Shown here in pieces: positions 15,777 to 18,835 of a stretch of DNA of 42,569 nucleotides. The notes below the pieces were generated by a model. The model had not been told where the DNA came from. It did no database searches and saw only the letters and a program-made list of their open reading frames with translations. The translations under genes were made by a program, and so were the position numbers. Within the stretch, counting starts at the first letter, position 1, and the number at the start of each line of letters is the position of its first letter. Source of the stretch: Mariniblastus sp. (GTDB lineage Bacteria > Planctomycetota > Planctomycetia > Pirellulales > Pirellulaceae); the NCBI GenBank assembly GCA_014237975.1, contig JABACA010000026.1, positions 1-42,569 of the forward strand, in the 5' to 3' direction.

Positions 15777-18700
15777 ATGAAAACTCTCTTCCCCTATTCA
15801 CCGGTCGTTGCCGTCGGTCTTTTGGCCGCACTGTTCCTGCTGGAAGTTGGCTGCCAACGTCAACAACAATCCGAGAAAACCGCCGGATCGAATGAAAAAG
15901 AGGCAATCGTCGAGCAAATTGTTGATAGCGAGGAACTGATCCTTGCTCTAAATACCAAACTGTCGGCTCTCAAGAAAAGCGCGCTGAATCTGGAAATACC
16001 GGACCCCTTGGGACGGGAGCTGTTTGCAACGCAGGTTGAATTTTCACCCTGGGATTTTGCGTCATCAACATCGAGTGAAGTGCGAAATACCTCGAACGAC
16101 CAGTTGACCTTATGGTCGGCCGAATTGGAAAAAATAAGTTACTTTGACCATGCCAAGTTTTACATGATCCGCGGTCATTTTGATGAAACCGACCCAAACC
16201 GTTTCCAATCCGATGTAGGGTTTTACGGCCTGGCCAAATTAAAGGATGGAAAATGGCTGGCCGCCAAGGCCAATTGCAAGGTGGGATGGATCCACAGTGG
16301 CAAGGACGACGACTCCTGGAAAATTGCATCATGGACAACCACCGACTTCTCGGCAAACCGGTCCGATCATTTGATGTTCCGTGACACCCTGGAAGGGCTG
16401 ATTGGCGATCCATCCTTGAGTCAATTATTGCGAACATCCCAACATATGGGATTCGCCGAACAGATTTTTCAGTCGGGCAATTTGCAGTTAACCGGTTTCG
16501 AGTCACTGGCGGAGAAATTCAAGGAACCTAATCTGGAGCAGTACTTCAGGGTTCAACAGGCGGGGCAACACCCGGGAGTTGCGATCGTCGACTTCGACAA
16601 CGATGGATGGGATGATCTGTATCTTTGTGACGAGTGGCGCCCCAATCGGTTGTTAAAGAACGTCAATGGAAAAAAACTGGTCGACGTTGCCGCTGATGTT
16701 GGCTTGGACCTCGGCCCTACCACCAGCGCGATCTTTGCTGACTTTGACAACGACGGTGACCAGGATGCGATCGTCGGCTGCTTCTTTCAATCCTGCAAGT
16801 TGATGTTCAACGAAGAGGGGAAATATGTTGACCGCACCAGCCAGTACGTTTCCGTTGACTTGCCTAAACTGACAACGTCCATCTCGGCTGCGGATTACAA
16901 CAATGACGGTTTGCTGGACATCTACATTTCGACCTACGGGTTTCCAGCCGGTCGTAAATCGAGTCGTAGTCGTTACTGGACCATGGACCTGCTGAACCGC
17001 TCCGAAGCGACCGAGATGCAACTCAACCAGGAAGGGACTCACCGTATTCTGAATGCCCTCGGTCCACCAAACTTGTTGCTTATGAACACCGGAAATGGCG
17101 GCTTTCGCAGGGCCCCGGAAAACGACGATGTGCAACTTCATCACAACACATTCCAGTCAACCTGGTGTGACTACGACCTGGACGGTGACCCCGATCTGTA
17201 TGTCTGCAATGATTTTGCGCCAGACTTTCTGTTGAGAAACGACGGACCGGACGGATTCACCGATGTGACGCTCGAGACAGGTGGCGAAGACATGCTCGGG
17301 TTCGGAATGGGCGCTTGCTGGGGCGATTACGACCGGGATGGCGATTTCGACCTGTATGTCTCCAACATGTACAGTAAAGCGGGAAAAAGAATCACCAAAC
17401 AGATCGACGGATTGGACGAGCGGTTTTTCAGGATGGCGACCGGAAACCGTTTGTTTGCCAACGATCATGGGAAATTCAGGTTGGTCGTCGAACCGTCGGG
17501 AGAAGTCTCCGCGGCAGGCAAAGCGGGCTGGTCCTGGGGAGGACAGTTCGGCGATTTCAACAACGATGGTCGGCAGGACCTTTATGTCTGTTCCGGTTTT
17601 TTCACGGCGCCTGAAAAATATGCCTCGACCGTTGATTTGTGATCCGACTTTTGGCGCATGGTCGTGCGCACGGATGATCAATTGGGAGATGAGTTTTCGG
17701 AATCATCAAAGTGGAATGCCGATAAGAGTGTGCTGTACAACTTCATCGAAGAAGTCGAGGTCAATGGTGAAACCCAACGAGTTGTCAGCTCTCAAAGTGG
17801 ACATGAACGAAATCACCTGTTCATGAATCAAAAAGATCACGAACTGAAAGATGTCTCCCTGATTTCGGGCCTCGATTCGATTGCCGACGGCAGGGCCAAT
17901 GCGATTTGGGATTTTGATCGTGATGGCTTCCAGGACATCGTCTTGGTGAACGCCAACAACCCGCTGTTGCAACTATTTCACAACCAGCTGAAGTCTGCCA
18001 ACCCGACCAACTCGAATTTCATCGCCGTCCAACTGACGGGCGGGAATCAATCCGGGCAATCAACCACCGAATGGAGTAACCGGGACGGAATTGGCGCGGT
18101 GGTTAGCGTCGATGCCGGCGGCGTAACCTTGATTCGGGAAGCCCGGGCAGGCGAGGGTTTTGCAGCGCAAAACAGCAAGATTCTGCTTATCGGGATCGGC
18201 GATCAAACCGAGGCGAATGTGAGTGTCCAGTGGCCATCCGGCAAGAACCTGAATTACGGCATGGTCCCGGCCGGGAAACTGGCACACTGTTTCGAAGACA
18301 AATCGACCACGTTCAATCTGTCGGGTGTTGAATTAAAACCGTATGCGGCAAAAGATCCCTTCGTCGACGTCGCCAGACGGGCAGATCGGGGTCATTTCCA
18401 ACTGGCCGAGGATTCAGTGATTCCTCAACCGACACGGCTGATCCTGTATGTCACCATGGCAAGCTGGTGCCCCAATTGCAAACGCAACCAGCCGCTGGTG
18501 GCCCTCCTGCAAAAACAATTTGGAGACCAGATTCAGTTGATCGGGGTTCCCGTCGACCCGCAGGATACGGTCGCCAAGATGGAAGAATACCGGACCAAAT
18601 ACAAACCGGCTTACGAGTTAATCGATCCTATTCCTCCTGCCAAACTGAGTGACCTGGAAAACCTGATTACCACGATCTCCGACCAGGGAGCTCTGCCCAG

Positions 18701-18809
18701 CACGTTAATCACCGACCGGCAGGGCAACGTTATCATGGCCCTCGGTGGAGTTCCAAGTAGCTCAACCGTTGCCAAGCTGTTGGACCGTCTGCCCAATTCC
18801 AACGAGTGA
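15777..18809 (+). CDS. CRTAC1-type FG-GAP/ASPIC/thioredoxin fusion with in-frame TGA (candidate selenoprotein)
   Basis: One continuous frame of 1010 codons plus stop, broken only by TGA at codon 622 (17640-17642). Residues 1-26 form a signal peptide ending VGC (possible lipoprotein). An N-terminal domain (about 30-240) resembles a nuclear-transport-factor-like region. FG-GAP/VCBS repeats follow with Ca-type loops: DFDNDGWDD, DFDNDGDQD, DYNNDGLLD, DYDLDGDPD, DYDRDGDFD, DFNNDGRQD. After TGA comes SDFWRMVV, another repeat DFDRDGFQD, an ASPIC/UnbV domain (GIGAVVSVDAGG, VQWPSGKNLNYG) and a thioredoxin-like domain with C898-P-N-C901. The ASPIC domain needs the repeats before it, so both halves are one protein. 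Other genes here stop at TGA, so the code is standard. Either Sec is inserted or a TGT/TGC has mutated. Protein folding or redox partner work at the envelope is a guess. Confidence 0.85.
17640..17675 (+). promoter_or_regulatory. Candidate bacterial SECIS element after in-frame TGA
   Basis: Immediately after the TGA, the RNA can form a lower stem AUCCG/CGGAU (17642-17646 with 17671-17675), an internal U-rich bulge (17647-17653), and an upper perfect stem GCGCA/UGCGC (17654-17658 with 17665-17669). The apical loop is UGGUCG (17659-17664). Bacterial SECIS elements sit in this place, with a GU pair exposed in a small loop about 16-20 bases after UGA and a bulged U below it. From memory the E. coli fdhF element has a GGUC loop in almost the same register. 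The fold is by eye. Confidence 0.65.
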
Positions 18810-18814
18810 CCCGT

Positions 18815-18835
18815 TACCCCACTCGCTGTGGGGTA
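18815..18835 (+). terminator. Hairpin after the CRTAC1 gene
   Basis: TACCCCAC (18815-18822) and GTGGGGTA (18828-18835) make a perfect 8-bp GC-rich stem with a TCGCT loop, five bases past the stop codon. No T-run follows, so it may be a factor-assisted terminator or an mRNA-end stabiliser. Confidence 0.55.

Follow-up and report, generated by a model that had tools for sequence, protein, structure and literature searches.

Introduction

Among described proteins, the best fold match to the protein considered here is cartilage acidic protein 1 (CRTAC1, PDB 9etn), which likewise has an FG-GAP beta-propeller followed by an ASPIC domain (fold match E 1.0e-26, TM 0.68 by target length; CRTAC1 profile match E 2.2e-31). 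We know of no selenocysteine (Sec) described in CRTAC1 and of no thioredoxin domain in it, and the Sec-bearing stretch of our protein lies outside the CRTAC1 sequence alignment, so CRTAC1 is no guide to the placement of Sec. With regard to decoding, the nearest systems are the fdhF-type selenoproteins of E. coli: in both, a UGA is followed by a 3′ hairpin with a G-rich loop that lies within published limits, and the loop in our sequence presumably resembles that of the fdhF SECIS. Unlike the fdhF type, several hairpin registers occur inside the one family described below, the Sec-propeller family. Finally, profile and fold matches identify a C-terminal domain held in common with the TlpA/ResA-like thiol-disulfide oxidoreductases, with the sequence WCPNC in our protein; unlike in TlpA/ResA, this thioredoxin domain is fused behind a Sec propeller.

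The 2026 catalogue of prokaryotic selenoproteins gives, in its accessible part, 119 families or subfamilies, and its table names none that is an FG-GAP/ASPIC or CRTAC1 protein (PMC13188914). Selenoproteins were reported in two planctomycetes in 2016, and table S9, which lies beyond the accessible part of that paper, could contain the Sec-propeller family (PMC4807772). Searches of one open-access library returned no text pairing UnbV with selenoprotein, or VCBS or FG-GAP with selenocysteine, while co-mention of CRTAC1 and selenocysteine in the passages available concerned peroxiredoxin 6 only. NCBIfam 20.0 gave no family-specific match for the protein and, among the matches listed, no Sec-propeller model, only thioredoxin-like and TPR parts; among those listed for 41 members of the family, eight fit the ResA-like WAxxUGC entry and one PrxU, via the thioredoxin-like domain and not the propeller. 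The suggestion in the original prediction that this might be a new selenoprotein family is supported by the catalogue table and the open-access searches, within the parts of those sources that were available. A CRTAC1-like selenoprotein family is apparently undescribed, in that Sec insertion would be of the standard bacterial kind, in a protein not listed with Sec before. The deep-Sep method, as set out in the accessible part of its description, retains a candidate only when its top ten hits include a Sec homologue already known or two or more Cys homologues (PMC12013277), and the small number of Cys counterparts may explain why filters of this type would have missed the family.

Results

The window, by which we mean the whole stretch of 42,569 nucleotides analyzed, belongs to a planctomycete genome (Mariniblastus sp.) of 5.0 Mb in 404 contigs, 94.8% complete. 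The gene opens at an ATG at 15777, runs for 621 codons to a TGA at 17640-17642, continues for 388 sense codons, and ends at a second TGA at 18807-18809. Its features are as follows.

15777..18809, + strand: putative selenoprotein gene, CRTAC1-type FG-GAP/ASPIC/thioredoxin-like, 1010 residues with TGA read as Sec
15777..15854, + strand: predicted N-terminal hydrophobic export segment, helix 9-23, ending LEVGC (sequence and model)
16023..16385, + strand: N-terminal mostly beta domain, residues 83-203 (predicted model, fold matches)
16575..17996, + strand: FG-GAP beta-propeller, residues about 267-740 (Pfam, conserved loops, CRTAC1 9etn fold match)
17640..17642, + strand: in-frame TGA, codon 622, proposed to encode Sec (107 distinct sequences have TGA where they align with it)
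17654..17669, + strand: SECIS-like apical hairpin GCGCAU-GGUC-GUGCGC; its loop, 17660-17663, begins 17 nt past the UGA
18087..18275, + strand: UnbV_ASPIC domain, residues 771-833 (Pfam)
18438..18788, + strand: thioredoxin/TlpA-like domain, residues 888-1004, WCPNC at 897-901 (Pfam, model, fold matches)

That the frame runs on for 388 codons past the TGA, through an ASPIC and a thioredoxin-like domain, had been claimed from inspection of the letters, and both the frame and Pfam agree; the Pfam thioredoxin-like matches, downstream of the TGA at about residues 882-985, are weak. Cys26 of LEVGC may represent a non-canonical lipobox-like site on an exported protein. Fold matches beyond CRTAC1 were to NTF2/SnoaL-like proteins and TlpA/ResA-like thioredoxins, and residues 83-203 probably form the NTF2/SnoaL-like portion that gives the matches to 3b8l and LinA. 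The propeller has seven DxDxDG-type loops, from which a count of its blades may be read, and Sec comes after the strand of the sixth.

The genome contains four further loci, each with exactly one in-frame TGA in the match, and all five copies found have TGA at the same residue within the motif DLU[S/T]xxWRxV. Across 99 genomes (this one and relatives) there were at least 150 matches; by hand count 146 of those listed span residue 622, and an in-frame TGA was present in 144 of these and absent in two, its exact place being checked in fetched loci only. A scan of GTDB contigs yielded at least 461 confirmed relatives, from which the best 80 were kept as named loci; these, together with 20 added fetched regions and further loci, make up the set in which the site itself was read. 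With gaps and sites outside the profile dropped, TGA occupied the site in 107 distinct fetched sequences (92 after 85% clustering) and another residue in 13. Persistence of the TGA in most homologues, one of the checks proposed at the outset, is borne out by these counts. Profile-placed TGA occurred in Planctomycetota, Verrucomicrobiota, Acidobacteriota, and Gemmatimonadota, and on sequence grounds the window gene is one of five TGA-bearing paralogues found in its genome and part of a large family in environmental bacteria of four phyla. Profile and alignments were built from TGA rows only, and the Sec column is invariant in them by construction because rows were chosen for TGA.

A base-calling error was considered and rejected on the indirect ground that the orthologues in two other genomes, with identities of 81% and 75%, have the same TGA. 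Three TGA-bearing family genes lie close together on one contig in each of four genomes (loci L040, L042, L045, and L048, at G003:C101, G007:C40, G017:C13, and G018:C32), which suggests local duplication. Divergent TGA-bearing relatives were also seen in Acidobacteria and Planctomycetota (L107 with two genes, L119, L135); in L107 the Trp after Sec is missing (DLULPF, DLULPY), so the sequence 3′ of the UGA differs there.

The original prediction had proposed looking for sel genes, and selA, selB, selD, and a tRNA-Sec gene are all present in the genome (SelA 576 bits; SelB 271 bits, over the cut-off and cut by a contig end; SelD 266.5 bits; tRNA-Sec 70.2 bits, with anticodon tca according to ARAGORN). 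In the 99 genomes, tRNA-Sec was called at 62 bits or more and SelA at 400 bits or more; the listed tRNA-Sec hits fell into one group of about 93-97 nt at or above 62 bits and a lower group at or below 58.9 bits, mostly shorter, which was taken for other tRNAs. Either tRNA-Sec or SelA was found in 43 of 45 genomes with a TGA homologue versus 23 of 54 others (Fisher 6.7e-9, genome kinship ignored), where the others are genomes with none among the matches listed and the majority of all assemblies are incomplete. The two exceptions, G022 and G087, are 83% and 81% complete; SelB was over the cut-off in both, and in G022 a fragment of SelA lies at the end of a contig. SelB was over the cut-off in seven of the eight genomes queried, all with a TGA homologue, and the eighth, G002, has tRNA-Sec. 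At L064 (G000:C356:18200-19105), the open frame that contains SelD has 733 codons, roughly double the length of the selD model, and may be a fusion.

With respect to the hairpin, the predicted upper stem GCGCA/UGCGC is present and is extended by a closing U-G pair that leaves the loop GGUC; the predicted lower AUCCG/CGGAU stem could form, but in the minimum-energy fold UGAUC/GAUCA and UUUG/CGGA are paired in its place. Published limits for bacterial SECIS elements, as stated in the accessible part of the source, are a loop of 3-9 nt, an upper stem of 4-16 bp, a G in the first two loop positions, a distance of 16-37 nt from the UGA, and a minimum free energy of -7.5 or lower (PMC13188914). The window hairpin falls within them (loop GGUC of 4 nt, stem of 6 bp, spacing of 17 nt, -13.3 kcal/mol), the energy limit itself discriminating little, with 55-93% of control windows in family genes passing. 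Taken alone, the window hairpin folds no better than chance (z -0.94; 33 of 200 dinucleotide shuffles give a fold that is as good or better), and the hairpin is significant only across the family.

Across the family, mean z for the 42 nt after the TGA was only slightly low, at -0.72 against synonymous shuffles (10.9% of the 92 sequences individually in the lowest 5%), compared with -0.21 to +0.09 for six control windows and +0.26 for the 13 non-TGA sites; one control window had a lower mean energy than the 42 nt after the TGA (-12.45 versus -11.55). Because such folding-energy z-scores discriminate weakly, a hairpin-specific synonymous test was used, scoring hairpins of 5 bp or more whose loop start contains a G and lies 16-30 nt from the TGA through 200 rounds of synonymous resampling. 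Hairpins of this description occur in 84.8% of the 92 sequences versus 29.5% in the shuffles (sd 4.5, maximum 43.5%), although for the window sequence itself the score chooses another hairpin. Codon choice points the same way: against usage in the same family genes, valine +7 is written GTC in 73 of 88 sequences (p 8e-16 for a background of 0.41) and valine +8 is written GTG in 69 of 74 (p 7e-29 for a background of 0.32). Judged by these patterns, the nucleotides 3′ of the TGA are constrained beyond the needs of the protein.

Ninety sequences with TGG at codon +4 were sorted by best pairing into one of three registers: A with 23 sequences, including the window, and loop GGUC; B with 51 and a loop that is mostly GGUCG; and C with 16 and a loop, mostly CGUGUC or CGUGAC, at 20 nt. 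Covariation tests in A and B are tilted towards structure because sequences were assigned by best pairing. Allowing for this, register B had 94.4% of cells paired versus 86.9% when shuffled and 25 cells changed on both sides versus 2.7, and its score of 0.294 exceeded that of every slid version (0.132 at most). Register A was weak, with 88.4% paired versus 86.9% shuffled, a value reached by 18 of 500 shuffles, and three double changes.

The UGA-plus-hairpin motif TGA-N9-TGGMG-N4-GTCGTG had 125 matches in 44 of the 99 genomes, compared with five for a control pattern, and 119 of the 125 fall in the 66 Sec-trait genomes; in 392 genomes sampled across the phylum there were 92 matches in 62 genomes versus nine for the control. 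Both sets are raw pattern matches, some of them plainly due to chance. One genome, G031, has 17 motif matches (control 1), five of them inside listed homologue matches, as well as three further listed homologues without the exact motif. In another, G373, four letter-for-letter identical motif copies (on contigs C123, C158, C339, and C804), of which three lie at the start of a contig, are apparently a repeated element unrelated to the Sec-propeller family.

Cysteine might have been expected at this residue in relatives; in a sample weighted towards Sec, it is absent from the close ones seen and was found only in two distant proteins from Pseudomonadota (L137, L143), both with Trp four residues after the Cys, the spacing seen in the Sec family. 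This rarity of Cys holds for the sequences sampled, that is the best 80 of at least 461 relatives and a profile built on TGA. The 13 non-TGA sites read T, E, G, F, G, C, C, Q, G, S, A, G, and T; among them the close relatives have E (L072), Q (L146), G (L166), S (L167), and A (L171), and a further close relative, L147, has a gap. A quick tree of 103 rows places the rows with E and A next to Sec rows and groups those with S, Q, and G in a single clade among Sec rows, with five changes needed between Sec and not-Sec. Sec rows conserve four residues, M511, M531, W585, and E677, each of which differs in most or all of the rows L146, L166, L167, and L171. Co-loss of these residues with Sec was dropped as a line of evidence, since several non-Sec rows keep them: all four are retained in L072, and M511 in six distant non-Sec rows.

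Discussion

The patterns detected indicate that the TGA at 17640-17642 is very probably recoded as selenocysteine. Under the proposed mechanism, the hairpin directly 3′ of this UGA would recruit SelB carrying Sec-tRNA(Sec), Sec would be inserted at residue 622 to give an exported protein of 1010 residues, and in the event that recoding failed a fragment of 621 residues would be released. Taken as a whole, the explanation comprising a selenoprotein, recoding through SelB and a hairpin, and a family of such genes is, on the evidence of sequence comparison, very probably correct.

That the read-through protein models well also counts in favour of recoding. The AlphaFold2 model with Cys in place of Sec and 41 aligned members (mean pLDDT 89.8, pTM 0.89) has residue 622 opening the helix 622-631 after the strand 616-620, and the predicted Sec622 sits after the sixth propeller loop next to the conserved D620 and W626. 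In thioredoxin-type enzymes, the reactive Cys or Sec sits at the start of a helix. From this placement and the CxxC domain, we infer an exported redox protein in which a redox-active selenol on the propeller might act on an envelope substrate and be recycled by the fused thioredoxin/TlpA-like CxxC domain in members that have one, with separate thiol systems taking that part in the others. A redox role for Sec622, with an envelope redox site as the favoured form, is a working hypothesis to which we would give somewhat less than an even chance. The fused thioredoxin-like domain is not a universal partner of Sec, because an aromatic-CxxC motif after Sec is found in 31 and lacking in 35 of 66 complete members. 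In a member set put together by choice from 41 of the 92 clustered sequences plus near copies, FG-GAP and ASPIC matches occurred in 41 of 41 and an AhpC-TSA match in 21.

An alternative explanation, with the same recoding, could be that Sec622 together with M511 and M531 forms a site for a soft metal, for example copper, rather than a redox selenol. This is consistent with the conservation of both methionines in 93 Sec rows (M511 0.99, M531 0.97), with their replacement in four close relatives that have no Sec (M511 by R, R, R, and G and M531 by D, D, G, and R in L146, L166, L167, and L171), and with the observation that Cys does not substitute for Sec in the close relatives seen. Three of these four rows are one clade, so that about two events are represented, and the E-bearing L072 keeps both methionines, as do six distant non-Sec rows for M511 and two for M531; since several non-Sec rows keep them, the two methionines are not tied to Sec alone, and we regard a metal site as unlikely. 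A broader and rather speculative possibility, for which the chances are low, is that the family is a class of Sec-dependent propeller enzymes in which a Sec opening a helix performs chemistry where Cys cannot replace it, perhaps with a soft metal held by two Met, and that it represents a main use of selenium in many planctomycetes and their relatives. The last part is suggested by the extensive duplication, as in the genome with 17 motif matches.

There are also ways to account for the TGA without selenium. The first is that another tRNA, for example one for Trp or Arg, reads the UGA. A hairpin after a stop can, as is generally known, promote read-through, and the residues at the site in close non-TGA rows are E, Q, G, S, or A and not Cys. 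Presence of the TGA, however, accompanies tRNA-Sec and SelA, with SelB in the exceptions, the hairpin is within published bacterial SECIS limits, and neither Trp nor Arg occurs at any of the 13 non-TGA sites while Cys occurs at two, all of which makes such read-through very unlikely.

Still less probable is that the TGA is an ordinary stop, giving a protein of 621 residues with a separate or decayed frame downstream of it. Most of the propeller would already be contained in the upstream product, and the downstream frame could start at an in-frame ATG at 17658, but a stop here would cut the propeller before the seventh DxDxDG loop, at 712. Moreover, the codon holds the same position in 107 sequences from four phyla with the downstream protein conserved in frame, and its presence tracks the Sec machinery. 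An ordinary stop also predicts TAA and TAG at the site; the 150 listed rows in which all stops were read through and counted contain one TAA, beside the TGA, and no TAG, this count standing apart from the site placement, which split frames at TAA and TAG and could not have revealed either there. An altered code in which UGA is a sense codon, for which only the in-frame TGA itself speaks, can practically be dismissed, because the 74 family genes with a terminal stop in view end in TGA (35), TAA (20), or TAG (19), 18 more running off the locus, 90 of the 92 family genes surveyed have no second in-frame TGA up to 400 codons upstream (exceptions L102 and L169), the window gene itself ends in TGA, and ARAGORN calls the tca tRNA a tRNA-Sec.

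For Sec at residue 622, as we propose, annotation that treats every TGA as a stop would truncate family genes, making several proteins in each genome look short or split. If the proposal is right, the beta-propeller joins the folds that carry Sec, in a family that spans four phyla with high copy number and few Cys counterparts in the sample seen, and the family would be a new system for asking what Sec does that Cys cannot.

The surroundings of the gene in the window gave no functional lead as judged by domain matches in ten neighbouring genes. Two of the ten were without any match, and the others matched peptidase S15, an AI-2E transporter, an ion channel, a photolyase-related protein, an aminotransferase, a phospholipase D-like protein, Lnb_N, and an alpha/beta hydrolase. 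Shortly after the terminal TGA, at 18815-18835, there is a strong hairpin (z -3.08) with a loop that lacks the early G of bacterial SECIS elements, possibly a transcription end signal.
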